A DNA stretch of 64,000 bases. Source: Phialocephala subalpina. Taxonomy: Eukaryota > Ascomycota > Leotiomycetes > Helotiales > Mollisiaceae. The position numbers and the translations under genes are program-made. The DNA is taken from positions 179,119 to 243,118 of the forward strand of contig FJOG01000061.1 in assembly GCA_900073065.1 (NCBI GenBank), read 5' to 3'. Positions 29,934 to 63,275 of the stretch are shown here, piece after piece (positions within the stretch are counted from its first letter, which is position 1; the number at the start of each line of letters is the position of its first letter). The notes below the pieces were generated by a model. The model saw only the letters and a program-made list of their open reading frames with translations, ran no database searches and was not told the DNA's origin.

Positions 29934-30115
29934 TTACTGTCCATACGCTGAAAGGCATTAGCTGCTATGCTAAGACAGAGCGGATTGAGCTGAAGGCGGG
30001 TCATACAAGTATCTCTGGGGTGAGGGACCTCAGTCTGAGGAGAGCTAGAGACTGTTGTGGGCTTGACTGTTACCCCAGTTGGGACGGGCATAGGTGGAGT
30101 GGAGGTTGAAGGCAT
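29934..30115 (-). CDS. SYGQ-1: micro-gene of the HPxD/SYGQ peptide family
   Basis: Exon 1 30115-30007 (109 bases), intron 30006-29948 (59 bases; GTATGA donor, GCTAAT branch, TTTCAG acceptor), exon 2 29947-29934 (14 bases). Product 40 residues: starts MPSTSTPPMPVPT, has the core VPHPRDT at 30-36 and ends SYGQ. No signal peptide, no membrane helix, no Cys; Pro, Thr and Ser dominate. The same exon structure, intron phase and end tetrapeptide recur in seven other places in this window, which is the reason to believe such a small gene. TATATA at about 30252-30259 lies about 140 bases before the ATG. Function unknown; the alternative is that the unspliced frame (DTCMTRLQ...) is used, but exon-2 conservation argues against it. 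Confidence 0.7.
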
Positions 30116-30351
30116 GTTTGGAAATGAGCTTGCTTCGATCAAGAAGTGAAGTTGTCTTTCGACTTTGAGTTTTTGAAGTAAGCTGGATTTGGTATGACGG
30201 GAAAGAATAGAGAAGAAAGACGAGAAGTAGGGTAAACGCTGGGCCTGGAACATATATAGCAGAAATTTCAACGCAACAGCCGGCGATTCAGAGGACACGA
30301 CGACTCCCGTAAACTAGAGTGCCAACAATCCAGGTAAGCCCTGCAGTCTAA

Positions 30352-30362
30352 CGGTGACAAGA
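30352..30362 (-). promoter_or_regulatory. shared upstream element of SYGQ-1
   Basis: Minus-strand TTGTCACCG, about 93 bases upstream of the TATA box. The same core occurs before SYGQ-2, -5, -6 and -8 at similar distances. Confidence 0.5.
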
Positions 30363-30554
30363 AGGGAGTGCAAACAGAGAGTGGTCAGCTGCATCAACCA
30401 TCATCTAGCTATATAGAGCTATCGTCAACCTGACTGCGAGTCAGGACGTACCCTGTCCGACGGAAGTCGATCGCGTGTTTAAAATCTATCCGACTGGTGT
30501 TGCTGCATGTGTGGAACCTTCCTCACAATACAGGGTGGCCCAGGTGTCTTGAGT

Positions 30555-30746
30555 TCAAGGCGGAAGGTTATAGATCGGTGCACAAGGCAGGGGTTGATTT
30601 GGGACAAGATGTTTTGTTAGTCGGCTCGTGCATGAGGATGCGCATGAAGCTAGAGGCAGAAGGCTGCAGAGCAGTACACAAGGCTGAGGTTGATTTTTGA
30701 CAGGAAATGTGGTTGGACGGCTCGTGCATGAGGTTGAACACGCATT
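30555..30746. repeat. imperfect tandem repeat, two units of 96 bp
   Basis: GGCGGAAGGTTATAGATCGG (30559) pairs with GGCAGAAGGCTGCAGAGCAG (30655), and GGCTCGTGCATGAGG recurs at 30623 and 30719; offset 96 throughout. The multiple of three keeps both in one open frame, but no family is recognised. Confidence 0.8.
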
Positions 30747-30949
30747 CTATCCAGTAGACCCCGTTCAACCACTCATGCGTGCCAAATCAGAGTGTTCAAC
30801 GCGACAGTTCGGCTATGTAAGCAAGTTCCTACCGCTATCGTGTAAGAAGTAGACCACTTGAGCTTGACTTCAAGTCACACTAATTTGTTACATGCGGCTC
30901 TACAATAAGCAAGACCGCGAGAAGCACCAGAAGGTAGGAGATTAAATTA

Positions 30950-32030
30950 ACGAAGGCTTGCTTTTACCGAAGAAGTGATTAAAACATGGTAGTAAGAGCT
31001 ATATACGATCTTTAATTAATACTAGAATAATAACACAGGAATAGAAAACTACTAAGAAATCGCAAATTCCCAAGTGAATTCCCAAGGAGAAACCTAATAG
31101 CTTTTTAATATTATCTTATTCTTTATAATATATACCTTAGTATTATTTGCATTTTATTTCTTTTTATATATCGAATAATAAATCTAATATTGAAATTCAA
31201 TAAAAAGAAACTCGGTTTTATATATAAAATAATATTATACGAGTTTATTATTTGTGGGTATAAGAGTAAGCACGTGCTCACGTGCGACGCTAGGCTGCAT
31301 TAGGACTAGCGGGAGAACGCGCAAAGTTAGAGGATATAATTCTCCAATTTTACGCTTTTACTTCTGATTATTTACAATTCAACGAAATACAATAATATAA
31401 TTTTATTATATATAATAAGTATTTCTAGTAATATTAATATTATTTATAAATTAAAAAATATAAGAAAGAATAAAAAATATATATAAGGATTTATAAAATA
31501 AATCAAAGATAAAACGGAAATCCAAAAAAAATAATAAAAAAATAAAAAAATATTAATAAATAATTATAAGTAATTAAAATAAAATAAAATTTAATAATTA
31601 ATTAATTAGTTTCGATAATAAAAAATAATAAAAAGAAATTAAATTCGAATATAAATTTAATAAAAAAAAATATATTAAATATTAAATTTAAAATCTTTTA
31701 AATTAAATATATAAAATTATTATATTTTTAGAGTTTTATAATAATAATAAAATATAATTTATCAAAATATTAAACTTTAATTCGTATAATATAATTACGA
31801 TTATAATATATTTCAAAAGATAATTAATATTAATAAATTGGTTTACAATAAAACTTATATAATATATAATTAAATTTAATAATAAAAATACAAATAGAAA
31901 ATCAATTATTAAAAGCGGTTAATTATTTCGAGCCGTTTTATAATATAAATCGGAGACGAGAAAAAGGAAGGGAGAAGAAGGAGAGAAGGAGAAGGGAAAG
32001 AAACTAACGAGAGATAGATAATTACGATAT
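30950..32030. repeat. AT-rich block with a small GC island
   Basis: TpA-rich DNA typical of RIP. A balanced island at about 31250-31350 carries the near-palindrome GCACGTGCTCACGTGC. No terminal repeats could be matched. The block ends abruptly at the TauD-gene fragment. Confidence 0.65.
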
Positions 32031-32293
32031 ATAAGGTTATTCTGGGGAATTACCCTCCGAATTCGAGGACATGGGTTAGGACTACTATGTTTAGAAAGAA
32101 GCGTGAGAATACTTCCCCGGTACTTGCGTTTGAATTGAACTGACAGCTTGCAGCATATCTTGACCTTGATAGCGAGAGTCGAGAGCAAAGGGAAAGACGG
32201 GTTGCAGAAGAGAAGTTAAACGCAAACGGCACCAAGAAGATCAATGGTATTGCTATCCACAAAGCGAAGGGTAGCGATCTTGGAGATAGTTGA
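32031..32293 (+). pseudogene. duplicated 3' fragment of the TauD-like gene
   Basis: Matches the end of the dioxygenase gene at 28034-28294: GTTATTCTGGGGAATTACCC, then CGAATTCGAGGACATGGGTT, an intron-like stretch from GTGAGA to GCTTGCAG, and a last exon reading PYLDLDSESREQRERR to GSDLGDS-stop. The catalytic HxD and the rest of the barrel are absent. Non-coding changes outnumber changes in the last exon, which is still open. Weak similarity continues to about 32450 (GAGGGCTTGCT shared with 28437 region). Confidence 0.85.
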
Positions 32294-32507
32294 ATGATAT
32301 ATTATATAATGCAGTCAAATAAGATTTCAAAAGGTTAAGCAAGTAGTGGTTATTCTTGGAAATATATTCTTATGATATCTAATAACTCCGGGCTCAATCC
32401 ATTTCAGGGGCCTGCAAACTTTCCTGGCCCACTTCTGAGGGCTTGCTCGAATCTTCCAACTTAACCCAGTGAAAAGCCAGGCCATCCCCGTTCCAGATAA
32501 GTCAAAA

Positions 32508-33196
32508 CCCCCATTAGTTGACCACCTTTTACACCAAAAATCGCGAATTTTACCCTTTAATAACTCCACTAAAAATTAATATAATTCTTTAAAACTTAAA
32601 ATATGGGTTTTTATTATAAAACTTAAAAAAGTTACTATTTTTATTTTTATTTTTTATTTTTATATATTAAGTAATTAAACTTCGAAATTCGAGATTTTAA
32701 TTTATATATAATTTATATATAAATTTGAAATTTTATAAATTTATAATTTTTTTTAAAAATTAATAAAAAAAGTTCCAAATTTTTTTAATAATTACTTTAT
32801 ATTAATGCAGCTTCAAATATATAATATATAAATATTTCTATTAATAATTAATTTTTTAAATTAAAATTATAAAATTTATTATATAAATTTTTATTAAATA
32901 TTTTTAAATTTCTAATAAAAAACTTGAACTTTTAATAGAAATCTTAATATATTATATATTTGGAATTAAATTATTATAAAGTAACCATTTTTAATTTTTC
33001 AAATCTTTTTTATTAATATTTAAAAAAGTTTTTATAAATTTATAAAATTGGAAATTTTTTTATATTTTATATAAAAAGTTTATATTTTAAATTTTAAAGA
33101 ATTATATTAACTTTTAGTAGAGTTATTAAAAGGTAAAAATCGCGATTTTTGGTATAAAAAGTATCTAATTACAAGGGGTGGCCGACTAAGGGGGGG
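32508..33196. mobile_element. AT-rich element with long terminal inverted repeats
   Basis: The left end (from CCCCCATTAGTTGACCACC) reappears inverted at the right end (GGTGGCCGACTAAGGGGGGG). The match continues for about 90 bases: ACCAAAAATCGCGA, TTTTACC, TTTAATAACTC, ACTAAAA and TTAATATAATTCTTTAAAA are all found in both arms. The 690-base body is nearly pure A+T and has no open frame, so it is a RIP-degraded, non-autonomous DNA transposon (MITE-like) or a collapsed larger one. Superfamily not assigned; a TA target duplication is possible on the right side only. Confidence 0.75.
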
Positions 33197-35710
33197 TATA
33201 GACTTAGCCGATAGTTATTATGAGACTTGTATTGAGAGACTCCGGACAGACCCATTGGACGCCCCTTTACTAATTAGGCTTAGTTTCCCAAATCAAGATC
33301 TAGGAAATAAGTGTATAGAATAAATCATGGGTGCGCATCTAAAACTCCATTTTCGAGTAACCAATCGTCTTGCTAGCTTTATTCACACCACCCATGCGAC
33401 TATCGTGGCTCTTATCGGGGACGTTAAATGAGTGCTCGTGAAATCCAGGTCCGAATTTGATGTATCTGTTAAATGTCAGCGAAGGGTTAGGCTGATAAGG
33501 AGTCTAAGGACCGACGGAAGGGAAGCGCCCGGTAAGGCGAGGAGCTGCGAGGCTGAGCTTCCCTTTAAACGAGAAGATCAAAGATTAACCCTTAGGCGTT
33601 AAGGCATTTCCAAATGTCCCGAGATAGAAGAAACTTTCAGCCTGATGGCATATACCACACTCGACAACAACATGTCTGATTGCATACTAAGCGGAGACTG
33701 GCTGTGTCTGTCTAGGTTAACCCTGAGCCTATTCTGCCTCGCGAATGAGGAAGGGTGTGGCTCACCTTGTTGATACGGCTGATCCAAGCTCACTAGAGAT
33801 GCACCCAATAGGTAAGTCACTGGTACGTATGAGGTCACCAATCAGATTCAAGCCCCATCTCTATTCCCGTCGAAGATGAAGTTGACCCTACAATCCGCAC
33901 GCTCACCAACACATGCGCGACCTTCGGAAACTGATGCGCAGACGCCATTAATTCTCGCATATCATAGCTAGGTAGTTCCTCAAATTTAGCTGTTAATAAA
34001 CAAGATATATGTTCATTGCTCACAGGAAGGACTACTTTGCTTTTGGTGTTCAGCGTCGCCTCGAATTTTAAGCGACCAACCCCGGAATCTGCGCGACACC
34101 CCTCCAAAATTTATAAACTTTACAACCCTTTTATAAAACAATCCGAAATCTAAGTATATAATACTCCTAATTAGTGCGATCAACTTAATCTAAAAACAAA
34201 AACAATCGGATAAGAATTATAAGAGATATTAGAAGTTAAAGCTTAAAAATAGGCTACTTGCACACGAGTTGGTGTTGCACAGCCAAAGCCTGATTTTTGG
34301 CGACGCTGAACACCAAAAGCACAGTAGGGATTTTCACGTCAGCGGAACAGCATATGCAGTGGTAACGCACACTGACTTGCTTCTTGAAGTTCCATGCAAG
34401 CAAAGTACGTTAGCTCGGATGCAGTCGGCAGTGACAAAACCTGCAGTAAGATACGAAACTTTCTTTATCAAGACCCTCGTCTAAGGCCAAAGAGGTCTGA
34501 TAACGGACGTCAATCCGTCTTCGGCTGGGGTTGGGCGGCCACTTTATGCGCGCTTTGATCACATCCTTCAGCGTGCTTACCTCCGTAGAGGAACTTGCTT
34601 CTTCTGACTTTGCGCTATAAGCTTTTCGACTCGGAAACCTCATCAATCCGTTTTAGGGAAATTCGCAAAAGCGGCGCCCAAACCAAACTGCACTTAGTCG
34701 ATTAAGATTTCGAGCGACTTGGATACTTGGACAACAATTACGTTGCAACAAATATCAGGGCAATAATGGAGAAGGGGTCATTATCAGCTGTCGGCAGCGG
34801 TTGCCTCGTCTGACTTGCATAGAATTGACAATTTAAAGCAGCAATGAGGCGTTCAAAGACTGACGTAGGCTAAGGTAGGTAGGTACCTTTTTAAGCAATC
34901 TAATAGTAATAACGATACCACTTCTCTGCAGGTCTACAAGCGTCGAGATGTATGTTTTATGCGATGGTCCGTGTTTTGAAACTAAACAGGGTAGTTAAGG
35001 TTTTCTCTGTCGGAGGACCAACTATTGAGAACTTGGGGAGGGGATTTGGTGTGGAGGGGTAGGGCTGCGGTACGGTATCGGCGTGATGTTGTCGGCGTGA
35101 TCATCATCTGTAAGGGACTCAAGGGTTGCCCGTTGCCATGATGGACTTCGACCCCCAGAGATCCCGCCTCTGCCTCTTCCACGTCTGCACCTTCAGCACA
35201 CAAGCTGGGCGTCGCCAAAATACCCCTGCGGGAACTTTTTCCTATACCGCGACTTAGGCGGCGTGAGGCAGGATCTCGGTCGGAGGTCCAATCAATCCGG
35301 CAATCTCGTTACTGAGCCCCATCGAATGCACACATCAAGTCATCGAGAATGTAGCACAAGACATGCCTGTAGTGTAGGGAAGCATCGCAGAAGCCTTTTG
35401 TGGCAACAATAAATGACGAAGCAGTGGGGAGAACATGGCGGGTTTTGAAACTCAGTTGGCTTCCAAAAGGCACTCACGGGCAGAGTAAAGTGCGGGAAGA
35501 AATCATGGCATTGGTAATTTTTGTAAATGACATTCCAATTTCAAGATTGGTTCAAACCCGGCTAGTGTCTCCCCAATACCACAAATTGCAATTGCTTCCA
35601 GATGCCCAGATACGCCTCATACCAGGAAGGATCCTTTTTATGCCTCCTCCAACTGACGTCTTTGCAGGACACGCCAACCTTGGAGACTTAGAAGGGTAAT
35701 GTCCAAAGAG
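33197..35710. other. gene-poor spacer with an inverted repeat
   Basis: 2.5 kb without family-bearing frames. Contains the inverted repeat 34039/34299 and, from about 35090, the region homologous to the 3' flanks of SYGQ-1 and SYGQ-4 (CGGTCGGAGGTCCAATCAAT near 35277, TTGTGGCAACAATAAATGAC near 35398). Confidence 0.55.
34039..34320. repeat. inverted repeat, 22 bp perfect arms
   Basis: GCTTTTGGTGTTCAGCGTCG at 34039 and its reverse complement ending at 34320 match over 22 bases; outward extension (CTACTTT / CTACTGT) adds about seven more with one or two mismatches. The spacer is about 240 bases. Could be the ends of a small TIR element or a strong hairpin. Confidence 0.8.
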
Positions 35711-35895
35711 TTACTGTCCATAGGCTACCGAACATTAATTGCTATGCAAAGGCCGAGGAGAGGGCAAGGAAAGTGCGTACAAGTATCTCGAGGGTGAGGG
35801 ACCGCAGTCTGAGAAGAACCTGATGCTGTTGTGGAGGTAATTCCCACAGTAGGGCAAGGGCTGATTGGAATGGTGAGGGTGGAAGTTGAAGGCAT
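35711..35895 (-). CDS. SYGQ-2: micro-gene of the HPxD/SYGQ peptide family
   Basis: Exon 1 35895-35781 (115 bases), intron 35780-35725 (56 bases; GTACGC donor, CGGTAG acceptor), exon 2 35724-35711 (14 bases). Product 42 residues, MPSTSTLTIPISP at the start, AVPHPRDT at 31-38, SYGQ end. Closest to SYGQ-1 (shared MPSTST, SSQTAVPHPRDT versus SSPQTEVPHPRDT) and, with its 3' flank, part of the same segmental duplication. TATA (TATAAAG on minus) at about 36036-36042, about 145 bases before the ATG. Confidence 0.7.
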
Positions 35896-36106
35896 GTCGG
35901 AAGACAAACTGGACGTATGTTTTGAAGGTGCAGTGTGGAACTTTATGCGTGGCCTGAAGCGCTTGAGAAATCTTACTCTTCGAGTGAAGGGAGTTGAGAA
36001 AGAAAATCAGGTCAAGGAGCAGCAGGCTCTCGACTCTTTATAGCACAGTGATGCATATCAAAAGCATCAGATCTGCCAATGGGCTCGCTGAACTACGAAG
36101 CACTTC

Positions 36107-36116
36107 ATCGGTGACA
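36107..36116 (-). promoter_or_regulatory. shared upstream element of SYGQ-2
   Basis: Minus-strand TGTCACCGAT, about 65 bases upstream of the TATA box; matches the element before SYGQ-1, -5, -6 and -8. Confidence 0.5.
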
Positions 36117-36623
36117 GGTAAGGACGGAATCAAGAGCAGATGGACACATTAAAGATGTGCTCGACATTACTCCCGATTACTGGCCTAGTGGCTTGCTCAA
36201 TTGGTCAGGGCCTTGTGCAGACTTGATTGGCATGTCAAAAACAAGCCAAGGCTGAAGAGCCAGTCAAAAGAACCCCACAAAATCTTCTTGCTCCACTCTC
36301 CTGCATATTTCGCCTGCTGCATATTTCACCTGCTCAAGAAACCACGACCAGGTTCATAGCGATGTCAGGGTGTCAAACCTCTAGCCTCCCGCCAAAGTGG
36401 CTTCGCTTAAGATCCCTACTACCAGGTGGCATTGCAGCTGCATGCATGCGGACGAAGTCATCCGAAACGCCGCGCACAGTAACTTCGATTGCTAATTGAA
36501 TCGCGAATACTGTATCGAAAGAAACGCAGAATTAATCGAGAACTGTTTGAGCGATCCGACGGTCGACAAGTCTGACACGAGGAAACTCCACACGGAGAGA
36601 CCTCAATTCAGCCTCCGCTTGTG

Positions 36624-37244: not shown

Positions 37245-37423
37245 TTACTATCTATAGACTTAATCGAATCAGCAGGTGCGCAAACGAGGTGCGCAAAGAA
37301 GAGGCAAGGACATACAAGTGTCTACAGGATGAGGTACAGCAGGCTTGACAGGGCCAGAGGTTTGTGTGGCTGCACTGGCACTACAATTGGTTGTGGCGTG
37401 GGTAGAGTGAAATGGCCGGGCAT
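37245..37423 (-). pseudogene. SYGQ-3: degenerate copy of the micro-gene family
   Basis: The 3' half of exon 1 (VKPAVPHPVDT), the donor GTATGT after ACTT (37315), the GATTAAG acceptor and a 14-base exon 2 are all recognisable. Two lesions: the only MP start (ATG at 37423) is one base out of frame with the HPVDT core, and exon 2 reads FY-R-stop because CAG has become TAG (a C-to-T change). It therefore cannot give the family peptide. Confidence 0.7.
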
Positions 37424-38416: not shown

Positions 38417-38574
38417 CTACTGTCCATAGGCTACAAGATGTTAGGTGCCAAAGACAAGCAGAGTAGATGGAATAGAGAGAGGTGCATACAAGTGTCGTGA
38501 GGATGAGGGGCTACAGTCTGGGAAGAACCCGAGACTGTTGTAGATGTAGTCGGCACCACAGTTGGGTTAGGCAT
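38417..38574 (-). CDS. SYGQ-4: micro-gene of the family, start codon shifted
   Basis: Exon 1 38574-38490 (85 bases), intron 38489-38431 (59 bases; GTATGC donor, CCTAAC branch, TTGTAG acceptor), exon 2 38430-38417 (14 bases). Product 32 residues: MPNPTVVPTT start, VAPHPHDT core, SYGQ end. The position equivalent to the start codon of SYGQ-1 (38598-38596) reads ATA, followed by the expected PPNSTPT; the next in-frame Met gives a shorter peptide that again begins MP. The change is C-to-T before A on the plus strand, the favoured RIP target. TATATA at about 38726-38732, about 155 bases before the present ATG. Confidence 0.62.
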
Positions 38575-40432: not shown

Positions 40433-40587
40433 TTACTGCCCATAAACTATTTTCACATCAACAGCTGTGTAGAGACAATGAACATTGAGAGGAGACGCAT
40501 ACAAGGATCGAGGGGGTGCGGAACTACAGGCTTGGTGGAGGTGGGGGTTGCAGGAGGTTGATTTGGAGATGTAGATGATGCAGGCAT
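40433..40587 (-). CDS. SYGQ-5: micro-gene of the HPxD/SYGQ peptide family
   Basis: Exon 1 40587-40503 (85 bases), intron 40502-40447 (56 bases; GTATGC donor, GAAAATAG acceptor), exon 2 40446-40433 (14 bases). Product 32 residues: MPASSTSPNQPP start, VVPHPLDP core, FYGQ end. Belongs to the subgroup with DP instead of DT at the junction. TATAAAG on minus at about 40773-40779, about 190 bases before the ATG. Confidence 0.68.
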
Positions 40588-42256: not shown

Positions 42257-42435
42257 TTACTGCCCGTAGACTGGAAACAATTAGGATGTGGGGAGAAGAA
42301 GAACGGCCTCGCAAGCGGTAGGTACATACAAGGATCGGCAGGATGAACTGAAGATGAGGCAGAGGTTGGGGGAGGTGAAGGGTGGACGGTACAGACAGAT
42401 GGCTTGGGGGCAATTGGAGTGAAGCTTGAAGGCAT
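42257..42435 (-). CDS. SYGQ-6: micro-gene of the HPxD/SYGQ peptide family
   Basis: Exon 1 42435-42330 (106 bases), intron 42329-42271 (59 bases; GTATGT donor, CCTAAT branch, TTTCCAG acceptor), exon 2 42270-42257 (14 bases). Product 39 residues: MPSSFTPIAPKPS start, SSSVHPADP core, FYGQ end. Closest to SYGQ-7, which lies about 19 kb away on the other strand (SFTPI, PKPS/PRPS, PTSAS, SVHPADP shared). A TATA-like GAATATAG at about 42584-42594 lies about 155 bases before the ATG. Confidence 0.7.
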
Positions 42436-42692
42436 GTTGAGGTGGGGTTGGATCTGACAATGTAATAGCTGATTGGTTTCTATGGTGAGGGAGTGATGGA
42501 AGGAAGCCGAGCCCGAGTATAGATTGAAGGGTGGATAACAATCGAGAGAAAGACGTGCAGAAAGTTTCCGCAGGACACTTTTGCTTCTATATTCTTCAAC
42601 ATTCTGCCAAGGCACCTTGGCTCGTGGAACAGCGGGTGCATTCTGTAGACATTTCCTAAGCCAGCTGGCACCGCTGCTGCAAGATAGAATCT

Positions 42693-50714: not shown

Positions 50715-50886
50715 TGTCAGTTGCTGGTCACGTGTAGTGGGTCAAACTCTCATTCCATATGGAGTATAGTTCAGGGGTAATCTCGCAGACTCTTATATCC
50801 TCACTCTCCTCCCTAGCTAGCTCTCCAGACTTAAGAATACGATCTTTTACCCATAATATAATGCCTAGACCTCGTAGCATCTGATA
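50715..50886 (+). repeat. left LTR, 172 bp
   Basis: Begins TGTCAGTTGCTGGTCACG and ends CGTAGCATCTGATA. Differs from the right LTR at about ten sites, nearly all C/T or G/A. Confidence 0.9.
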
Positions 50887-53800
50887 GTTATAAGCCTGGA
50901 ATTCCCTAAGGCCTAACCACCGAAATAACCACATATTTGGCCTACTCGGTAAAAACACTAAAATCGGTCTTCTTCGACTACCTCCACCCGAAACAATCAA
51001 CGATTGCCTGATTAGTAGCGTCTGCGACTACAAAAAGTTGTTTATCGTATACTTATACTTTATTAGAAGATCTGCGAGCTTATTATCGCGACTATAAAGC
51101 AAAATAATAGAAGTAAAGCCTATTCCGGTGATTTTAACCAAAGAAGCAACTTACATTAAATGAAAAGAAGTTACTAAGATAAGAGCGAATAAAAAAGATC
51201 TATAGAGGTATATTAACTTAAATACACCTCAAGACAAGCTTTCAAAGCTAATTTAATTACTAATGCTAATACTAGCAAATATTAAGATAAATATTATAAT
51301 TACGTTATTAGTTATACTCACGAGAGATAATCAAGCAATATTAAGAGGCGTAAGAATAATCTTTTTGATTAGAAAAGTTAAGTTCTTGGACTTAGACGCA
51401 AATAAAAAAAAGAGTTAAGATTACTTAGAGAAACTTAGTCTTATGAGCTTAAGGCCTATTACTAGCAAAGCAAAGCCTATAAAGGTTTAAAAGTAATAAT
51501 TCAAGTTTTTATTAATTAGAAATACTTACTTTATACGTTTAATTGCGAAATACTCTAATATATAATATATAACTTAAAGTTAGAGATTACTTTATTAAAT
51601 CGAGCGCAAAAAGATAAAATCTTGGAAAAATAAAAAAAGTTTAAGATTATAATAAAATTATCGATAAATATCGAGTTATAACTAAGAGACTAATATTTTA
51701 TATACGACGAAAATATTATACTAAAAATCCCCGATATAATCGATAATTTAAGATTATATTATGATTTCCTTTAAGTAATTTACTTAATTATACTTACTTT
51801 TGCGGATATAATAGAAAAAGAGCTATTAATAGAAATAATACTATAAACGTTTAAAGAACTTTTGCGTTTCTATTAATAATAATATAAAAATACTTTAAAC
51901 CGACCAAAAGTTCGAGAGGTATAATATGCCTACCCGATTACCAATAATAAAAAGCAATAATAATAATAGCTTACTTTTAATAAACGAACGGGGAGAGACT
52001 ACGAGAATATACCTTGTATATATATTATAATCCATTAGTTCAAAGATTACTTATATATCATAAAAAACAAACGAAAACCAAATTAAAAACTAAACTCGAA
52101 TATTCAAAAATAAATAAACAAAAAAATAAAAAATAACTAAAAAGTCTAAAGAAAAATCGATTAGCTACGCAAAAAAGCCAACAAATAGTAAAACGCAAAA
52201 ACTATTTTACCTTAACCTTTTGCGAAAAGCTTAGGGTATAAGCCCCCGATACTAGTCTCGAAATCTAAAGATATAATGTTTCCGGTGTTACCAAGTTACT
52301 ACATTATAAATATCAACGATAGTGAATTTGACGCTAGTAAACTAGTCGATAATAGCTAGCTTATTAATAATAATAACTCGGTTTATAACGTAAATATTAC
52401 TTTATCATCTAAAGTACTTAACGCGCTTATAAATAGTATTATTTTGGATTCTAATATTACGTGCCATATAAAAAACAATAAAAACAAATTCGAGAATTAT
52501 ATTCTTGCCGCAATAAAAGAAATGCTCAAAATAGGCAATAGCGTAACTACGGTTTATAATTGAGAAAATATTATTATTTTAGTTTAATATTCGAGTTACC
52601 TAAAAAAAAAAAGATTACTATTATAAACGTTACTTTTTGTTTTAATTTCCCGCTTATTATTATTAATCTTTATTTATTTAAGGCTAAAAGTATTATATAA
52701 GATATAAAAAACGAGTTACTTAAATGCGCTAATAGTATAATATACTAGATATTATTTCGAGAAAATTAATAAGTATTAAAATATAATTTATTATTTTTAA
52801 GATTAAATTATATTATTAATTAAGTAGATAATCACGTTTATATTACGCAGAATTCGCGTTAATTTCTTCGCGTAATAAAAGCTATAGCTAGAAAGTAATA
52901 TAATCGAATAGGGCACTTGTATATAGAGATATTTTCTTATTTACTATAATAAGCAATCGGTTATAAGATCACGACCCATGAACTTGGTTATATTTGCAAA
53001 GTTTATAAACTCGCTAAAACTTACGAAATCGTTTCTCGTAAACTAATAAAATGAAATTATTACCTTTATAATCGGATTATTAATAATTAGATTTATATAA
53101 AGAAAGGCAATAAAAACAAGTCTAAGATCTTTTATCTTTATTATAATATTTACTAAATAAATTATATCTTTTTGTTCTTAGATCTCAAATAAGTAATTAT
53201 TATTACTTACGTTAAATATTTTATAAGATAAATCAAACGAAAATAGAGTTTTCAAGTAATAATTATTAAAATCGATAGATAAACTTTACTTGATAAAGGC
53301 TAATATAAGTTAATTAACGAAAAAGGTATTATTATCAAGCTTATTTCTTTTAATATATACGATTAAAACGGTCTTACGGAGCGTATTAAAGAAGTGATTA
53401 TAAGCAAAATATATATTATATATATTAGTGCTAACTTCTTTTCGAATATATTTCCAAAGTCTTATTATGCGGTAGGTTACTTGCTAAATAAGTTACCAAA
53501 TAAGCGTTTAGAATAGATATTACTTTTAGCGTTTCTTTAGAAGTAAATAAAAATAAAGAGTTATTTGCCGCAAATTATATATCTTAAAGTCTTTAGTTAT
53601 AAAGTTTACTTTTTTATCAAAAACTATTTAAAGCTTAATAAACTTAATTTAAGAGTATATATAGGCTATTTAGTTAAATATAAATCTATGAACATTTTTT
53701 GCATATAAATATTATTATTGAGACGCGCTATTTCGATTAAAAACGTAACTTTTGATAAGAATACTTTTTATAACTTTATACTTAATAAAAAGCTTATTAA

Positions 53801-54188
53801 ATTAGAGGTTATATAAATCCAAGAGATTATCGAAATTATTGAAATAAATAATTTTTCAAACGCGAGCTACGAATTATATAAGTACGAATATTAGTTAAAC
53901 GCTTATACTAAGAATACTGGAATTGCTTATAAGGCTAATATCAAGAAGCCTAAAGATATAATTATTATTTAACCGTCTTAATTATTTACGCTAAAGTTAT
54001 TACTAAAGTTATTACTAGAGCTAAAGTTATTACCGGAGTAAAATAACCAAGCTTTAGACTCTTTAGATAATCTTCTAACTACTAATAACCTTACTAGAGA
54101 TTATCAAGTGAAGTATGCGAAAAGCTTATTAATTATCTTAGTAAATATAGAAAATAATATATTAGACGTAGGAAATATACTTATATTA

Positions 54189-54343
54189 GTACTATGGAGG
54201 GGTAAACCTCTTGGAGTCAATTCTAGTGTCTGCGAACCACATAGAAAGCTGCCTAAAAAACTAAGAATACAAGATGCCAGATCTCTTAATATATCCTTAC
54301 CAAACCACGTGATACACCGCCCTGCCATTCTGCCCTGCCACAG
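54189..54343. mobile_element. 155-bp insertion nested in the copia element
   Basis: A balanced-composition stretch (from GTACTATGGAGGGGTAAACC to CCTGCCATTCTGCCCTGCCACAG) inside AT-rich DNA, flanked on both sides by the 11-base direct repeat TACTTATATTA (54178-54188 and 54344-54354). It looks like a short element that entered after the copia copy had been mutated. No terminal inverted repeats or poly-A seen; identity unknown. Confidence 0.7.
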
Positions 54344-56616
54344 TACTTATATTAATGCCATCAAGTAACTAATATACTAATAGCTAAATTATACTTCGAT
54401 CGGGTTAAGCTTTTTCCCGTCGATTAATTAGATCTTTAGATTCCCTTGCTTTAATAAGCCCTAGTTACTCTTAACCTAGTAAAACGCGATAAATAAATAT
54501 TCGAGCTAATATTTAGAATCCAAAGATTTCTATCGAAAATATTAAGACTAGAAAACATATTAAACTTATAATTACTTATAATTATAGCAAATATAAAGAA
54601 AAACAAGAAAGATATATTATACTAGTTAATAACTTTTATAAAGACTTTGTGTTTCACGTTATTATAATAAAGATATTATGTGCCCTTTATACTAAATTAT
54701 ATTAAAATAAGCTATTACTAAAACCTCGAAATTATTAGGAAATATTATACTATTTATACCGTGTAAAATTCGAAGTAATAATAAAAAAAGAATAAAGCAC
54801 GCTTTAAAAGAAAGGAACGTTTAAAGAAATACTAATTAAGACTACAAATAAAGTAAATATTAAACCGATTTTACTAATATAAGTATTAAACTATAAGTTT
54901 AATAACGATAGCTATCTTTTGAAACATAAGGCATATTTTGTAACGCATGAAAACTTTTAGTAAAATGATTGAAACGAAGTTTATATTATTACCTTGGCTT
55001 CTTGAGTCTTTCGAATACTAATTACAATTATAATATATTTCGACTTGGAAATAAAGCAATTTGATATTATTAATACGTTTATTAACTCTCGAATAAATAA
55101 AGAGATTTACGTTAAGCTATTAGATAGAAAAAAGAAGCCTAAATATATATTATATTACTAGATAGCGCTTTATAGCTTTAATATATTATTGCTATTATAG
55201 TTTAATAACTTTAGCGCGTTTATAAAATCGTTTAGTCTCGAATTAGTATCAAAATGTTTATGCTTATTTACAAATAGCAAAGTAATAATATTTTTTTACG
55301 TCGATAATATCTATATACTTTACTATTAAAAAGAATATATTTGGTATAAGAAAGTAAGATTTTTTTTGCTAGAGAAATACGAAATACGCGAAATAAATAA
55401 ATTAAAGTAGTTTCTAAGTATATACGTGGTTAGAAACAAGATATAATAGAAAATATAGTTTTGCTAAGACTTTTATATAAAGAATATATATTGGAAGTTT
55501 AAAGTAAATATAAGAGGCTTATTTCCCAAAGTTCCAGTCGATTTTATCGTTAAATTACGACTATATAATAGAAAAGCAATTACTCACTAGACCGTAACTT
55601 ATTAATAGTAGATTAGCTCAACGATTTACTCGATAACGATTTCTCGCCTCGATATAGCGTGAATCACCAAAGAACTAGTTACGTTTAACTAAAACTCGAG
55701 CCCTAATTACCGCGAGGCTACGGAACGGCTCTTGTAATATCTCTACGGCATACGTTACTTAGCGCTACAATTTGGAGGAATAGAAACCGAGTTTATCGAT
55801 AAAGAGCCTGTTTTTCGCACTGTTAGTAACGCGTCTTTTGCGGACGACGTGGCAACGCACCGTAGCACCCAGGGCTTCCTCTTCCAGGTTTTCGGAAGCA
55901 TAGTAGACTAGAAAAGCAGTAAACAAGACTTAGTTTCCACGTCGACTACAGAGGCAGAGCTGAAAGCTGTCTCAGCGTGCGCGTTATGGCTCATGTGATG
56001 GCAGCGGCTATTCGATACAATTAAACTCGACTTACCTAACGATAACACTATTCTCTGTGACAACCTCCAAACTATCCGTCTCATAGTGAGGGAGTCTCCG
56101 AAGCTAGTCACGAAATTGCGGTACGTTAATATCTACTAGCACTAGCTACGCGAACAAGTTAGGGCTAAAAATATCAATATTATCTAAACTAAAATAGCAA
56201 ATATACCAGCAAATAGCCTCACTAAGCCACTATCACGTTAAAAGCACGAATCTTTTGTCAAATAACTCAAACTCGTTGATATCGAACACTTAATTACTCT
56301 CAAAGGCAAAGCCTAAACCGGTATTACTTAAGTTAATCGATTTAAATTATTACTTTTTTTTGTTAGTTTAATTAGAGTTACTAATTATATACTCACTCGA
56401 ACCAATTATCTTCTTTATCACATTAAACATCGATCTTACGCTTATTTTATATGTTTTGATAATACTAATATCGATATTTTAGGAAAACACTTTAATAAAA
56501 GTGAGTCACTAGCTGTTAGGTGCTATCACAGTAATTACGCGTTCACTTTTGTGAATAGCTTTACTTTTCTCTTGTCTACTGTAGCAGGACTCGTTGCCTC
56601 TCGACCTGGGGGGGTA

Positions 56617-56788
56617 TATCAGTTGCTAGTCACGTGTAGTGGGTTAAACTCTTATTCTATATGGAGTATAGTTCAGGGGTAATCTCGTAGACTCTTATAT
56701 CCTCACTCTCCTCCCTAGCTAGCTCTCCAGACTTAAAAATACGATCTTTTACCCATAATATGATGCCTAGACCTCGTAGCATCTGATA
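56617..56788 (+). repeat. right LTR, 172 bp
   Basis: Begins TATCAGTTGCTAGTCACG (TG to TA at its first step) and ends CGTAGCATCTGATA, followed by CTTTC. Confidence 0.9.
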
Positions 56789-57051
56789 CTTTCGAACTCC
56801 TCATCCCTCATTTCCTTCCCAATTCCAATTCCAACCCCGGCCTCGTCCAACCTATCCAAACCAATTCTCAAATCCAACTCCCGATTTTGTCACAGGAACC
56901 AAAACCTCCTTACTTCTCCGATACCTCACTCGTTTCGAGCACTCGAGCTTACCACTCTCATCACGACTGCGCCGTCTTCGGTTTCCTCCCGTACACAACA
57001 TAACTGCAGTCAAGTCAGCTCAGTTTCTGCTGTTTCCTCCGCTAGTGGTAC

Positions 57052-58172
57052 TCACAACGGATAATAAGCATGAAACCTCTGATTCCGAATATCCTTCCTC
57101 ACACCCGTCAAAAAGACCGTCGTCTCCTCAGCACTCCACCCCATCCCCCTCTCAAATAACCTCAAACTCATCCCCTCCAACCCATTTAAAAACATCTCCA
57201 ACTCAAACGCGCCTATCAACCTCAATCTCGGATCTTTCGGCCACGGATTACTCGGAATCTTATATTTCCTCTCCACAACAGCCTCAAACCCCGCCTCCTC
57301 AAACCATCCTTTATACCTCTCAGCATCCTCCAACGGCGCACCCATATGTTTCGCCGCCGCCAATACATATTCATTAAACTTCCTAAACGAACAATCCATC
57401 GGCAAACTCTCGTCGTCGCATCCTACAGCTCCGTATATACATTGGAACTCGATATATCCGCCGGGTTTTAGGGCAGTGTATGCTTGGGATATTAAGCCGG
57501 GGAAATCCCGGATCGATAATAGGAGGTCGCGGGCGAATATGAAGTCGAAGGATGACTGCCGCCAGGTCCAGGGTTGTTCGATATCGTCGATTTCGAAGCG
57601 GCAGTTGGGGGCGACCCTGGATTTTCTGTTAGAGAAGAGTTGGTTTGGAAGGGAGACAATGGGTACCATTTTGGCTGGATGGGTGCGATGTCTACTCCTA
57701 TTACTTCTGCGGAGGGGTACTCGTCTGCGATGTCAATGGCCCAGATACCGGTTCCGCATCCTAAATCCATGATCTTTTGAGGATGTTTGGAGATGGGGGC
57801 AAGGAAGCGTTTCTTTTCGAGGAGCATGTAGTATTTTGCGTGGGACATGTCGATTCGGTCCATTTCTTGTTCGTCCATTGGCATGCCGTACTCCTCTTTT
57901 CCATACGCAGCATACGTTCTTCCATTCTCGGTCACCCCTCGAATAATACTCGTCGAAAGAGAAGTCAATGAACTTCCTGCGATACTCGTACCCTGGCCCT
58001 GATCGCCGTTAGATGTCTCACTCCTCTACATCTCCAGAGACAGCCATACCTCATCCTCAAACCCCTCATCATGAGCCTCGATGGCCCCGACACTATCCGC
58101 ATCATGGGCATCGACTACCTCAAATTCATCGCTCGCATCCGCCTGTGTGCTCGCCTCCACTTGCTCAGTCAT
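57052..58172 (-). CDS. LaeA-like class I methyltransferase
   Basis: Three exons on minus: 58172-58050, 57998-57667, 57616-57052; phases 0 and 2; 339 residues. Introns: 58049-57999 (51 bases, GTATGG donor, TCTAAC branch) and 57666-57617 (50 bases, GTACCC donor, TCTAAC branch), the second restoring IQPKW-VAPNCRFEIDD. The acidic N-terminus (VVDAHDADSVGAIEAHDE) and ENGRTYAAYGKEEYGMPMDE are typical of the LaeA-like group. SAM motif I MDLGCGTGIWAID at 118-130, EVIGVDIAPIQP follows, later FDFIFARDL, LKPGGYIEFQ and a GWFEEAGFE. Relatives range from global regulators of secondary metabolism to dedicated pathway enzymes; which applies here is open. Divergently transcribed from the O-methyltransferase. 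Confidence 0.85.
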
Positions 58173-58875
58173 CGCGATATCTCTCTTTGACGCAGGAACC
58201 CGTCAACCTTGTCGTTGTCCACCTACGAGTCCACCTCAAAAGTATACAAATATTCCACAGCAAAGGAAGTCAGCCACCATAAAACACATTCTGAGGTCGA
58301 AACCCTCGGCTTCACCAGTTCCATTTTAGGCATAGTCAATTGATCATCCACGATCGGCTGCACTATCTCGCACTTACGTATTGGCTGTCCAATATGAGAA
58401 TGGTTTGGAGAATTGATGCACCACTACTGCAGTCCAAGACGTTGATAGTGCTGGATGTTGTAGTGATGATTGGGTGCTCAGACTTAGATATGACGAAGGC
58501 GTGCCCTAAAACTTCGCGGATGCTCACCCGAGGGCACAGTAGACTGCAGCACGCCAGTAGTCCAGAGACCTACCCGTTTGGGCATTATCCGAAGAACAGC
58601 ACCGAGATAGAGGGGTAACGAATCCCCACTTGAGCCTGGAACCACAGAGTAGCAAGGTTCGCGATACCGTACCGAAGATGCCATGTGGTTTGTTGGTACT
58701 ACTTCGTCTATCTCGTGCTACTCCAACATACATAAATAAAAACCTTGCTCCGTCAGCGTCCCATCGGTCTGGAGACGAACGCTTATCGAAACACACGCAA
58801 CACCTTCCGGATCCGAACGAGAGCTTATCTTGGTATTGATTAACCTAGACGTCGTACGAGGACGATCCAATCACA
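58173..58875. promoter_or_regulatory. shared divergent promoter of the methyltransferase pair
   Basis: 703 bases between two ATGs pointing apart. No defined operator recognised. Confidence 0.55.
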
Positions 58876-60320
58876 ATGGCAGCTCCTCCTCCTCCTCCGT
58901 CAGGACCGAATCAGGAATTAATCAAAGCAGCGAAGGAATTCGCTGCGGCTGCTGAGAGGTTTGATGGGAGTCAAAATGAGCAGATGAGGTTGTTGAAGGA
59001 GGCGGATACGTTGCGGTATTTGTTGGAGAGTCCGTTTGATAGGATGATGAAGCAGTGGGAAGGGGTGAGTTTTACCTGAGATGCTGGGCTGGAGAATTTG
59101 GAGAGTGGATGATTGATGATGGGTAGACTACTGTTATTTCCGCGCTGCATCTTTTGGTTGAAACGGGGGCGTTGGAGAAGATGCCGAAAGAGGGGAGTGT
59201 GACGCCAAAGGAGATCGCTGCTCTGATTAATATTGAGGAGAGTGCTATTGGTACATTTGCGTTTCTGGATTGTGGGCAGGATGGCTGATTGTGTACAGCG
59301 AGAGCCTTGAGACTTTGCGTTATGGAAGGGATTGCCGTCGAGACAGCGCCGAGTACATTTGCTCACAATACGAAATCCCTAGCATATGCCAGCCCAGGCT
59401 CAAGAGAGTTCTTCCGCATCTGGTACTCCCCTTCCATCTTTCCCTTTCATCACTCACTGACAAAACTCCAGTATGGAACAACTAAAAGCTTTCCTCAAGC
59501 TTCCGGATTATTTCAAGTCTCACACCCGAGAAGATCTCTTCAACCTCAAAAAATCTCCTTTTGCTTGGGCGTTTGACTTAGAAGGACTTACTTATTATGA
59601 AGCTATAAGTCACAATCCTGACAGGTTCAATATGTTCAATATGACAATGACCCAATTGGAGAACCAGGTCCCGATCCTGGGAATGTTTCCATGGCCGACT
59701 CTGAAGGCCGAAGTGGAAGCAGAACCTGAGAGGGCGTTTATTGTGGATATTGCAGGAAACAGAGGCCACTGCTTAGTGGCGATTGGCAAGGAGACTGAGA
59801 ATGGGTTTGGAGGAAAGGGGAAACTCATTTTGCAGGATAGGCCGGATGTCATTGCGAGTTTGACGCCGGAAGATATTCCCAATATCGAGACCATGGTTAT
59901 TGATTTCTTCGAGCCGCAGCCTGTCAAGAGTAAGTCATTCATCCCTGAGACTCGAGTTACATTGCATGCCCTGAGAGATGAGATGCTCACACAACACCAG
60001 ATGCACACGTCTACTTCCTCCGCCGCATCCTCCACGACTTCTACGAACCCGTCTGCATCACCATCCTCCGCAACATCGCATCAGCCATGGGACCCACATC
60101 CCGCCTCATCATCGCAGACATGATTCTCCCAGATAAGACCGAACTAGGAGGCGATATGACTATCTACTGGATGGATTTCTCGATGATGATGTTGAATGGG
60201 AAGGAGAAGACGAAAGGGGAGTTTGAGGAGATTCTTGGGGAGGCGGGGCTGGAGTTGGTGAAGATTTGGCCGTTTGGGTTTGGGGCACAGGCGAATATTG
60301 AGTGTAGGTTGAAGAGGTGA
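58876..60320 (+). CDS. O-methyltransferase (fungal plant-COMT-like type)
   Basis: Five exons: 58876-59064, 59127-59250, 59299-59422, 59472-59929, 60001-60320; phases 0,1,2,1; 404 residues. All introns are GT-AG, 48-71 bases. The N-terminal half is the helical dimerisation domain (ALHLLVETGALEKMP, SVTPKEIAALINIEE). The SAM site near residues 237-245 reads VDIAGNRGH where the family usually has VDVGGGxGH, i.e. two of three glycines are changed. The catalytic region YFLRRILHDFYEPVCITIL, with His in RILHDF, and SRLIIADMILPD match fungal O-methyltransferases of polyketide and other secondary pathways. The C-terminus MEDFS-type region reads IYWMDFSMMMLNGKEKTKGE. Likely partner of the divergent LaeA-like gene. 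Confidence 0.87.
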
Positions 60321-61450
60321 GGTTTAGATTACGGAGTAGGAGTTTGGGAGCGCGGGAGTGAGGAGCGGTTTGATGAACGAATTATAGACCAATACACAAC
60401 GAACGTCGATAGGTGGGAAGGTCGTTACCACTTCTCCGGTCACGAACAAGGCGTGGAACAGCAAGAAAAAGGATCATTTTGAGGACAAGTGCTGCTTCTG
60501 GTTGAAAGTCACGTGCTGCGTTTTTCGACTTCACTCTCAACAGCTCCTCCACTAGCTCTTTCTACAACATGAGAGTTGCCTTTATCCGGACTCCAAACGA
60601 GTATGCTCTGCTTCTCGGATGGTCCGTTCAATCCGCTGCTCAGACTGTCCCTCGAAGAAGTGCGAACGGCGAGTGCCTTTGCCTTTTCCTCGTTTTATTC
60701 AAGTCATTTTGACATTTGAAATTTGCTTTTGCTTCATACTTGCGTGTTTGCCTCCTTTTTCATTTGGCGCGAATTTTTGAACGGCGGCCAATCAAAGTCT
60801 TAGTCTCATATCAACCCGCAGTGGTGGAGACTTGCGGAGACGACTCGAGCTTGTGCCATGGGAACCAGTCAGATGAAGTTGTCGAGACTCGAGTCAGAAG
60901 TTAGGGGTGCAGATGTGGCGTTGCCAACAGCCAGTGAAAAACTGAGTAATCGAATCTCGACAGGGGAAGTTTCCTCGTTCACGCTAGCGATCCGATCCTC
61001 GCGCATTTCGACCTCATCCGCCCGTCTCCTAACCTCACCTCACCTCACCTCGCATCGCCTCGCATCTCCTCACCTCGCCTCGCCTCGCCTCACTTCGCGT
61101 CACCTCGCCTCTCCTCACCTCACCTCTCCTCACCGCACCTTTCCTCATCGCACCTCTCCTTGTCTCCTCGTCCTCGCTCACGTCCTCCTGCTCCTCGCTC
61201 ACGACGATGGATCCACGGCCGCACAAGATGGCACCTCATTAGCCAATTGGCAATTACTGGTCAAAAGCTTTGGAGCCTTTTCATTGCCTTTTGCGACATA
61301 TAAAGTCGATGTCACCTTGAGCATGTATTGTTTCGGTCCTTCAAATTCTGCTGGGCTACAGGACTACTTCCCAGCTTCCAGATTACGCTATAATTTCTTG
61401 AAGTTCCCAGAGCCAAAAACACTTTGCTGAACCAATATTCGTCCGCCAAT
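60321..61450. other. spacer with a microsatellite and the SYGQ-7 promoter
   Basis: No gene seen apart from the promoter: ATATAAAG at about 61298-61305 lies about 150 bases before the SYGQ-7 ATG. Confidence 0.55.
61026..61170. repeat. CTCAC/CTCGC pentamer microsatellite
   Basis: About 145 bases built mainly of CTCAC, CTCGC and CTCTC-type five-base units (for example CTCACCTCACCTCACCTCGC). Strand-asymmetric: pyrimidines on plus. Confidence 0.9.
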
Positions 61451-61640
61451 ATGCCGACGCTTTCAACAAGCTTCACTCCAATTCTCCCAAGGCCGTCAAC
61501 GCTGCCTGTCCAGCCCCCAATCCAGCCAACCTCTGCCTCAACTTCTGTTCATCCTGCAGATCCCTGTATGTATCTGCCACGGTTCCAAGTTTGTTCTTCA
61601 GTTGCGCGGGACCTAACTATTCATAGCTTATGGCCAGTAA
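61451..61640 (+). CDS. SYGQ-7: micro-gene of the HPxD/SYGQ peptide family
   Basis: Exon 1 61451-61565 (115 bases), intron 61566-61626 (61 bases; GTATGT donor, CCTAAC branch, TTCATAG acceptor), exon 2 61627-61640 (14 bases). Product 42 residues: MPTLSTSFTPILPRPS start, STSVHPADP core, SYGQ end. Clear sister of SYGQ-6. First plus-strand copy, separated from the others by the transporter, GH15, copia and methyltransferase genes. Confidence 0.7.
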
Positions 61641-63095
61641 CCCTTGCTTCCACCAACAAGCTTCCGCCATCCATAATGGCATAGCAGATACTCAGCTTGT
61701 GTTTTAATAGGACATTGGTCCCGTTGGTACCGGCTAGTAGATGGGAGCGGAGTATATTGCCGGTGCCTTCGCTTTCATACAAGGACAGTGCCATTTTTGA
61801 AAGGTGGTCATGGGTTCTTCTTGCGGTCATCAGGTTTTCGGTGCATTCTCCTCGTGGATTGTTGTCTCCATCTTGGTCCTGGCCCTGCCGCTTGCTTTAC
61901 ATTCGGGCTATGCTTTCCAGCGCAGATAGACTTGCAATCAAGTTTCTTCTTCTCGCCCACACCATTTTGTTCTTTCCGCATTACCCTGTCCAAGAATGCA
62001 GGCTTCACAATCTGGGGAAGGGAAAATGTCGTGGCCCGGACTCAGAAAATCCCCAGACAGAGAAAGCTTAAGGCAAGTGCCGTCTGACTTCCGTGGTAGG
62101 AAAACGTCACGGCGAGAACCAAGGATCCCAAGATAGGAAGTTTGAAGTTCTAACCAATCACGTTATCTCGCTTATACAACTCGTTACATTCCTATCTCTG
62201 AGAGCTGTCAGGCTCTGATCTGGCCTGATATATCCACGAGTCCGCCCAGTGAAATGCCATGATTAGTGCTATGTTTCCTGCACTAGGATTTTCTAAAGCC
62301 TGTGGTATTACCAAGTGAGAGCATCCCAACCCTGTTCCGAACGGGAACCGCCTCAAGTGACGCGGAAGGGCGACTGTGATGCAGGATCAGAGGTTTGCCG
62401 TCTTAGTCCATCCTCACTAAAAAGTGACGTTGCAGGGTATATAAGGCCCGTGGTAGTGCACTAGCCCTAACTTGGATCGCCAAGATTCTGCCTCATGACG
62501 GTGAGCAGTGCTCGCAGCCTCGCTCGCTCATGTAATATCTATCTCAAAATGCAAGTAAGCCACAGATTTCAGCCATTTGGCTCGCTCATTGGGGATGCAG
62601 TGCACGCCATGGTTGGTGCCATTGGTGAGATGCTCGGCAGGGTGCGCCTCCAAACGCACCCCTGCTCGGCATCGTGTTTCCATCGGAGAATTTGTATGCA
62701 TGGAGCATACCTCATTGGACGCACAGGATACAAGTATACTTATACTTTACGTGCATCCAATGAGGAAGGGGATAGAATTGTTACAGGAGAAAGAGTGCGT
62801 CTTGACCAGTATTTTAGAGCACAACGATTCGGTATCGTTGGGCGATGGCTTGCAATTTCAGCCAATCTTCGACGTACTCTCTTCATTTGTCACCGATGAA
62901 CGAGTGCACACAAGTGTGGTGCCAACGTTCAAGCAACACCAGCCGCCTGCCTCGCACCAAGATCTAGTATATATGGCAGAGTGGCCACCCTGATCGTTTT
63001 GTCTTCTGCTGTTACTCCAACTGCTACCAAATTCTTCTTCACGAACCACTTCAAAGTTATTTCGTTACCCAGTTGAACTAAAACATCACATCAGC
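61641..63095. other. spacer with the SYGQ-8 promoter
   Basis: No family-bearing frame. A TATATAAGG near 62438-62447 and a TATATATGG near 62966-62974 are TATA-like; the second serves SYGQ-8, the first has no recognised gene behind it. Confidence 0.5.
62887..62897 (+). promoter_or_regulatory. shared upstream element of SYGQ-8
   Basis: TTGTCACCGAT, about 70 bases upstream of the TATA box (TATATATGG). Confidence 0.5.
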
Positions 63096-63275
63096 ATGCC
63101 TTCGAACTCCGCTTTAAATATGCCGGGCCAAACCCCGGTGCCAGTAAAGCCCGCTTTAGTTTCTGTCACTCCTCAACCTGGGGTCCCTCATCCTGGAGAC
63201 ACTTGTACGTTTTTGCCTCTTCTTTGCTTACTACTTTTATATACTTGCTGATTCAACCAAGTCTATAGACAGTGA
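63096..63275 (+). CDS. SYGQ-8: micro-gene of the HPxD/SYGQ peptide family
   Basis: Exon 1 63096-63204 (109 bases), intron 63205-63261 (57 bases; GTACGT donor, GCTGAT branch, AACCAAG acceptor), exon 2 63262-63275 (14 bases). Product 40 residues: MPSNSALNMPGQTP start, GVPHPGDT core, FYRQ end. It has the same FYR exon-2 form as the degenerate SYGQ-3, and both share a GGCCAC box just after the TATA region and the GCTGATTC branch area. TATA about 125 bases before the ATG. Confidence 0.7.

Follow-up and report, generated by a model that had tools for sequence, protein, structure and literature searches.

A 64,000-nucleotide stretch of the Phialocephala subalpina genome (C41:179119-243118, here called the window) carries clustered two-exon micro-genes, whose predicted products are short peptides that end in a shared tail split by an intron. 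Judged from the sequence, the micro-genes most likely constitute a real protein-coding family, whose splicing and translation are predicted. We give a probability of about one half to the fuller reading, in which the family is restricted to the P. subalpina lineage and would encode short, disordered and non-secreted peptides with the tail as the working linear motif.

To find the genes, the window was scanned for 14-nt exons that read xY[G/R]Q-stop directly after an acceptor and have an open exon 1 in phase 1 upstream, any GT being admitted as donor. This returned seven intact genes, five on the minus and two on the plus strand (Table 1), with an exon 1 of 85, 85, 106, 109, 109, 115 and 115 nt, phase-1 GT-AG introns of 56, 56, 57, 59, 59, 59 and 61 nt and an exon 2 of 14 nt in every case; the same structural scan gave 0 matches when the window was shuffled 20 times in two-base blocks. 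The encoded peptides of 32, 32, 39, 40, 40, 42 and 42 residues start with MP and end in HPxD[T/P][S/F]Y[G/R]Q. Genes are also designated below by the first base of exon 1; in gene 4 (40587) an alternative, less canonical GT donor lies 6 nt downstream and would give a different junction. The original prediction had counted eight intact micro-genes on both strands: seven of these are as it described them, whilst the eighth, locus 37423, is a pseudogene. This locus was located by a pattern search with no frame condition and retains the HPVDT/GTATG donor, a 57-nt intron and the exon-2 site; its exon 1 from ATG to donor measures 108 nt (0 mod 3, not 1) and its exon 2 reads FYR-stop. We call it a pseudogene because the ATG frame differs from the HPVDT frame, in which no ATG precedes the upstream stop. 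The path from ATG to stop is open in seven of the eight window loci located regardless of frame, and a DNA profile built from all eight copies revealed no further copy in the window.

Support for the coding frame comes from the way in which the copies differ. In three pairs with no gene in common, each tested with 2000 column shuffles, differing codons were synonymous in 9 of 20 cases (30115/35895; shuffle mean 0.21, p 0.007), 10 of 22 (42435/61451; mean 0.21, p 0.0015) and 8 of 27 (40587/63096; mean 0.13, p 0.014), and a fourth pair that overlaps the others gave 7 of 15 (35895/38574; p 0.0165). The other two frames of the three disjoint pairs yielded just 0-2 synonymous codons of 19-29. The codon-based comparison proposed in the original prediction was also carried out: by the Nei-Gojobori method (NG86), the nonsynonymous rate (dN) lies below the synonymous rate (dS) in 19 of 19 estimable pairs, out of 21 among the intact window genes. 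Within the tail, codon positions 1, 2 and 3 are identical among window copies at 0.83, 0.85 and 0.56. Signals that played no part in the selection of the genes point in the same direction: a GTAYG donor is present in 7/7 intact window genes, although the scan required GT only, and a branch-like YTNAY motif lies near the acceptor in nine of ten loci (pseudogene included) compared with 21% of background sites. Since the copies are related, a binomial value for the latter is overstated, and chance figures for such short, related copies are indicative. In six of the seven intact window genes TATAWAD occurs at -200 to -90, compared with 4.3% of ATGs; the intact window genes probably have promoters of their own.

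Conservation is concentrated at one end of the peptide. Among the window copies amino acid identity is 74% in the tail versus 38% in the body, and an alignment reveals little in common beyond MP and a nine-residue tail. Selection on both peptide ends had been proposed: the tail identities and codon positions uphold this for the C-terminal end, whereas N-terminal sharing amounts to little more than Met-Pro and is missing from a 67-residue member found elsewhere in the genome. The seven window peptides contain 22% proline, 15% serine and 15% threonine. For these and two members from a second contig (C45), nine in all, the net charge ranges from -1 to +1 and the start is not hydrophobic; a simple hydropathy scan, made with no dedicated predictor, detected no signal-peptide-like stretch in 9/9 (best nine-residue Kyte-Doolittle mean ≤1.24), in agreement with the earlier view that a signal peptide is absent. 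Four members with D-P-F look like endocytic DPF motifs; this resemblance may serve as a lead only.

The original prediction had described the family from eight window loci, and to these a genome-wide search added two. The genome scanned comprised 68.1 Mb in 119 contigs; the published assembly, according to the passages available from its description, has 69.69 Mb in 205 scaffolds (PMC5148876). A strict pattern for the end of exon 1 and the donor, CAYCCNNNNGAYMCNTGTRNG, gave nine exact genome matches compared with two for a reversed control, eight of the nine inside the 33-kb window cluster. The ninth match lies on C45, at the exon-1 end of a gene for 67 residues that reads MDRNPPKIIPRRPDDPQPARFCNTSIQDLEGPKTTVKLEIRPSAQDVIHAPRGSKAQEHPPDP and, after a 77-nt intron, FYGV in a 14-nt exon 2; this putative gene counts as a member through its exon 2, the donor-pattern match alone being within chance. 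The relaxed pattern CCNNNNGAYMCNTGTRNG gave 24 genome matches compared with 34 in the control, so that its sites outside the family appear chance-like. One of them belongs to a second C45 gene, 2.4 kb from the first on the same strand, which encodes 23 residues reading MPSNDPNPQPKPNPPDP and then FYGQSN, with a 51-nt intron that contains a CTAAC branch-like motif. The bodies of the C45 pair differ from those of the window copies; a D-P/F-Y-G tail (slash, intron) and a phase-1 intron are common, so that tail and intron position are the features that the two clusters share. The intron falls within the fifth codon counted back from the end with the stop included, and within the seventh in the 23-residue member. 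In total ten loci were found in two places, nine of them intact: eight in the window, pseudogene included, and two on C45. When 60 kb around the C45 pair was compared with the window (E≤0.01), the single match lay near window position 5.7 kb, outside both gene groups.

Membership was decided on an exon 1 ending in D/E plus P/T/S and an exon 2 with Y-G or Y-R. By this measure only the two C45 genes qualified among the sites checked: eight one-mismatch strict sites (one being the 67-residue gene), two exon-2 sites outside the cluster, all 16 non-window CCNNNNGAYMCNTGTRNG sites (two being the C45 genes), 20 non-window sites of another exon-2 pattern besides the 67-residue gene, and those 27 of 56 exon-2-like sites outside C41 and C45 whose first exon base is C or T, none of which was counted. 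The remaining 14 non-window CCNNNNGAYMCNTGTRNG sites included none with a Y-G exon 2, the closest being D-T/SYCGSAE in L036; read by a looser scan as MIEKALLPSDT/SYCGSAE, it was not counted as a member. Rejected likewise were open reading frames (ORFs) of L050, L057 and L059 (FYGL, FYGE or FYGV), with no D-P/D-T end and with non-canonical donors, and two more ORFs (L079, L092) that lack such an end and have long SYGQ... tails. As for sensitivity, the exon-2 pattern behind the 56 sites recovers 5/7 intact window genes and that behind the 20 sites only 2/7; a single exon 1 used as protein query recovered four of the eight window copies, and a DNA search with gene 1 recovered itself alone. The patterns would miss any member that differs in donor, residues or phase.

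Database searches placed the family in no known group. Searched as a profile, the seven window peptides had no homolog at E≤10 among 5.8 billion proteins, where eight candidates shared words, and no match in the PDB; the nine peptides gave nothing in Pfam at E≤10, four peptides gave no match in NCBIfam, and among the papers listed by literature searches none, judged from titles or abstract openings, describes such a family. This agrees with the original prediction, which knew of no described family of this form. The 67-residue C45 peptide has one match, the metagenome ORF P0001 (98% identical over 94%), which continues into the intron: 63 exon-1 residues carry one change and a 25-residue read-through three. 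That the protein database does contain named fungal proteins, P. subalpina included, follows from a query with the spliced TauD dioxygenase at window 26.9-28.1 kb, which over 99% of its length is 100% identical to the P. subalpina protein PAC_18812. Genes as short as these are rarely annotated, and missing database homologs are therefore weak evidence; unannotated relatives may exist in other fungi.

The copies also retain traces of their duplication history. Genes 42435 and 61451 form a sister pair (support 100/99) in a tree whose four other inner branches are weak, and 37423 and 63096 are 76% identical over 150 bp. Both pairs span the arrays of opposite orientation, 19-26 kb apart, and their match at E≤1e-4 covers part of the gene and extends no more than 46 nt into the 3' flank. 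This bears on whether exon-2 similarity is merely part of a longer non-coding repeat: it is not so in these older pairs, and is partly so in 30115, 35895 and 38574, three genes that resemble one another in the 3' flank as well. As the flanks of these three are about as similar as the genes, they say little on selection in the body. The segment repeated 3' of them (29.04-29.22, 35.19-35.50 and 37.91-38.19 kb) contains gaps that break any frame, and we read it as a probable duplication footprint. Each array, read in its own direction, has the D-P type and then the D-T type; because this order is the same in both, it suggests that a two-gene unit underwent inverted duplication.

In the reading that we favour, each gene would give a short, mostly Pro/Ser/Thr-rich peptide that is probably disordered and stays within the cell. 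The body would be mainly a fast-evolving spacer, and the working part would be the tail P-x-D-[P/T]-[F/S]-Y-[G/R]-(Q/V), most likely as a short linear motif, placed at the chain end or close to it, to which an intracellular partner may bind. The arrays would have expanded through tandem and inverted duplication, with copies born and lost. Several observations weigh against this reading. Binding of the tail by a partner is our inference. The 67-residue C45 gene has no branch-like motif near its acceptor, and TATAWAD is absent from the tested span of either C45 gene, as it is from the pseudogene. A gapped global comparison of seven pairs puts exon 1 (67-82%) barely above the intron (61-77%) and the flanks, which makes the constraint on the body weak; exon 2 (71-93%) tends to exceed the rest. 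In the pair 35895/38574 similarity is higher in the flank (77.6% over 241 bp) than in the gene (69.6%). Finally, the protein searches found no homolog in a named species, so that deep conservation is unsupported.

Some of these observations would also suit tandem duplicates that drift under little constraint, expressed or not, with the shared ends as ancestral remnants: a pseudogene has already arisen among the eight window copies, the bodies vary freely, the 3' flanks of three genes are about as similar as the genes, and exon 1 hardly stands out in the gapped comparison. We consider this unlikely, given the synonymous bias in all four pairs tested, dN below dS in every estimable pair, and older pairs that match across the gene whilst their flanks beyond it have no match at E≤1e-4. 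A constraint at the level of RNA, through exonic splicing signals or a regulatory intron rather than the peptide, would account for the position of the conserved residues on either side of the intron; it appears very improbable, however, since third positions of tail codons vary where positions 1 and 2 are kept, introns are no more alike than exon 1, and Rfam gave no match at gathering score over 27.5-64 kb. That pieces of a transposable or repeat element were taken for genes is scarcely credible: inverted repeats (32524-33162) and AT-rich DNA (52-56 kb, 26% GC) do lie nearby, yet the patterns used found only 8+2 copies in the genome, older-pair similarity stops near start and stop, and self-comparison revealed no terminal repeats around the genes.

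The peptides might instead be precursors akin to ribosomally synthesised and post-translationally modified peptides (RiPPs), the tail being a follower for a maturation enzyme, the variable body holding the core, and the processed product being released with no need of a signal peptide, after the manner of the mushroom MSDIN family. Conserved ends around a variable middle agree with this, as does a gene anatomy that parallels MSDIN (33-37 residues, clustered, near-terminal intron of 52-58 bp; PMC5159998, from the passages available). Several results nevertheless make it quite improbable. PF02897, the N-domain of prolyl oligopeptidases and here the test for a dedicated one (POPB), had 0 matches in the genome at E≤0.001, a search in which introns could split a match and in which the five positives among 14 control genomes were all bacteria, leaving no fungal positive control. 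UstYa (PF11807) has 56 exon-level matches in the genome, several each on C43, C112, C46, C34 and C8 and none on C41. The Pfam tally of 54 ORFs of at least 95 residues at 28-63 kb contains no RiPP maturase family, a conserved 10-residue leader and a defined core are both absent, and the 23-residue member leaves a core little room. The 56 UstYa matches may in themselves represent a large potential for dikaritin-type peptides in this genome. A broader proposal, which we hold as tentative, is that the family may represent a new class of ascomycete micropeptides: the intron-split D-P-F-Y-G-Q-type tail would be a transferable C-terminal module, found on bodies of 23, 32-42 and 67 residues, and would serve one of two ends, docking of the chain end to a conserved receptor or recognition by a maturation pathway without prolyl oligopeptidase or neighbouring UstYa.

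Table 1. Micro-genes and pseudogene of the window (window positions).
Feature	Position	Strand	Details
Gene 1, exon 1	30007..30115	-	MPSTSTPPMPVPTGVTVKPTTVSSSPQTEVPHPRDT; window scan
Gene 1, exon 2 (SYGQ-stop)	29934..29947	-	59-nt intron 29948-30006
Gene 2, exon 1	35781..35895	-	MPSTSTLTIPISPCPTVGITSTTASGSSQTAVPHPRDT; window scan
Gene 2, exon 2 (SYGQ-stop)	35711..35724	-	56-nt intron 35725-35780
Gene 3, exon 1	38490..38574	-	MPNPTVVPTTSTTVSGSSQTVAPHPHDT; window scan
Gene 3, exon 2 (SYGQ-stop)	38417..38430	-	59-nt intron 38431-38489
Gene 4, exon 1	40503..40587	-	MPASSTSPNQPPATPTSTKPVVPHPLDP; window scan
Gene 4, exon 2 (FYGQ-stop)	40433..40446	-	56-nt intron 40447-40502
Gene 5, exon 1	42330..42435	-	MPSSFTPIAPKPSVCTVHPSPPPTSASSSVHPADP; window scan
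Gene 5, exon 2 (FYGQ-stop)	42257..42270	-	59-nt intron 42271-42329
Gene 6, exon 1	61451..61565	+	MPTLSTSFTPILPRPSTLPVQPPIQPTSASTSVHPADP; window scan
Gene 6, exon 2 (SYGQ-stop)	61627..61640	+	61-nt intron 61566-61626
Gene 7, exon 1	63096..63204	+	MPSNSALNMPGQTPVPVKPALVSVTPQPGVPHPGDT; window scan
Gene 7, exon 2 (FYRQ-stop)	63262..63275	+	57-nt intron 63205-63261
Eighth copy, pseudogene	37245..37423	-	HPVDT/donor and exon-2 site present; ATG frame broken; intron 37259-37315

The window further contains a HET-domain protein, a glycosidase, a sugar transporter, an FAD monooxygenase, a TPT-type transporter and a GH15 enzyme, with methyltransferase-domain ORFs at 57-58 kb. The Pfam tally covered 54 of the 66 stop-to-stop ORFs of at least 95 residues that reach beyond 28 kb, the 12 omitted mostly overlying a longer ORF, and found only methyltransferase (including O-methyltransferase), GH15, TauD, trehalase-N and transporter families; it gives families without assignment to individual ORFs, and shorter exons would escape it. 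The idea that the micro-genes are upstream ORFs is disfavoured, as the array at 28.4-43.5 kb has no ORF of at least 150 residues and the neighbours of the C45 pair appear to be genes without relation to it. The region holds further repeats. A duplicate (32022-32293, 77%) of the 3' end of TauD and the DNA that follows it (28026-28294) lies 4 kb away within the micro-gene region, and an imperfect palindrome of about 640 bp (32524-33162, 72-76%) resembles a fold-back element or one of the miniature inverted-repeat transposable element type; a stretch similar to it, read as LLKGKNRDFWCK, occurs at the extreme end of C41 (L026), where the assembly stops. Just 5' of a sugar-transporter ORF there is an exact tandem duplication of 250 bp (15883-16132 = 16133-16382, 100%), either recent or an assembly artefact. 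Positions 52001-56000 have 26% G+C, compared with 41-51% in the rest of the window, like a degraded repeat affected by repeat-induced point mutation, and a 173-bp repeat (50717-50889 and 56619-56791, 95%) flanks this stretch on either side. On C45, a tandem array of approximately 99-bp units (C45:1098249-1099511, L073) lies some 27 kb from the micro-gene pair, and ORFs near the pair (L035:6146-8302) contain, by eye, repeated ubiquitin/SUMO-like segments.

Small genes of this kind, with a coding intron and the protein end in a 14-nt exon, escape six-frame ORF finders and are likely to be overlooked by standard gene callers; a search with an intron-spanning signature can recover such families and is repeatable in every fungal genome. 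The family also yields a concrete tail motif. Should the tail module prove functional, a widespread endophyte of roots would possess a novel kind of peptide signal, or of docking motif, that acts inside the cell.

With regard to known systems, fungal small ORFs of up to 80 residues have been surveyed in 31 genomes from existing annotations and from sORFfinder and getorf predictions (Mat-Sharani & Firdaus-Raih 2019, PMC7394265). The likeness is that such ORFs are short, often unannotated, many below 40 residues and mostly of unknown function; the main text of that survey does not mention Phialocephala, Helotiales or proline, and its available passages contain no two-exon tandem family. For P. 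subalpina itself, passages of the genome paper give 4,233 species-specific proteins and name the RNA-seq dataset PRJEB12610 (PMC5148876). With lineage-specific multigene families of fungi the micro-genes share restriction to a species, tandem duplication and birth and death of copies. The best-studied of these families are secreted, cysteine-rich effectors, whereas the micro-gene peptides have no signal-peptide-like stretch and, in the seven window peptides, 0.7% cysteine. Dikaritins and other UstYa-type RiPPs are likewise ribosomal peptides of ascomycetes, and UstYa is abundant in this genome. Dikaritin precursors carry signal peptides and repeated cores; the micro-gene peptides have neither.

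The closest parallel in gene anatomy is the MSDIN family of Amanita and other Agaricales, with its tiny, clustered, multicopy genes, a short near-terminal coding intron, conserved ends and a variable middle. According to the passages available, MSDIN precursors of 33-37 residues are often clustered, with the intron of 52-58 bp in the fourth codon from the end, and consist of a conserved 10-residue leader and a 17-residue follower around a core of 6-10 residues between two prolines (PMC5159998). Clustering agrees, since eight of nine strict-pattern matches fall within 33 kb, whilst the window peptides (32, 32 and 39-42 residues) come close to the length range with none inside it, the introns of 56-61 bp lie in the fifth codon from the end, and leader, follower and defined core are all lacking. 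MSDIN also belongs to another phylum, the Basidiomycota, and the likeness is one of gene anatomy, sequences not having been compared. Because leader and follower are absent, lengths and intron are off, PF02897 has no match and the contig has no UstYa, we do not assign the family to MSDIN; a precursor role, a reading of low probability, would give the MSDIN gene anatomy a counterpart among ascomycetes, served by an enzyme different from those tested.

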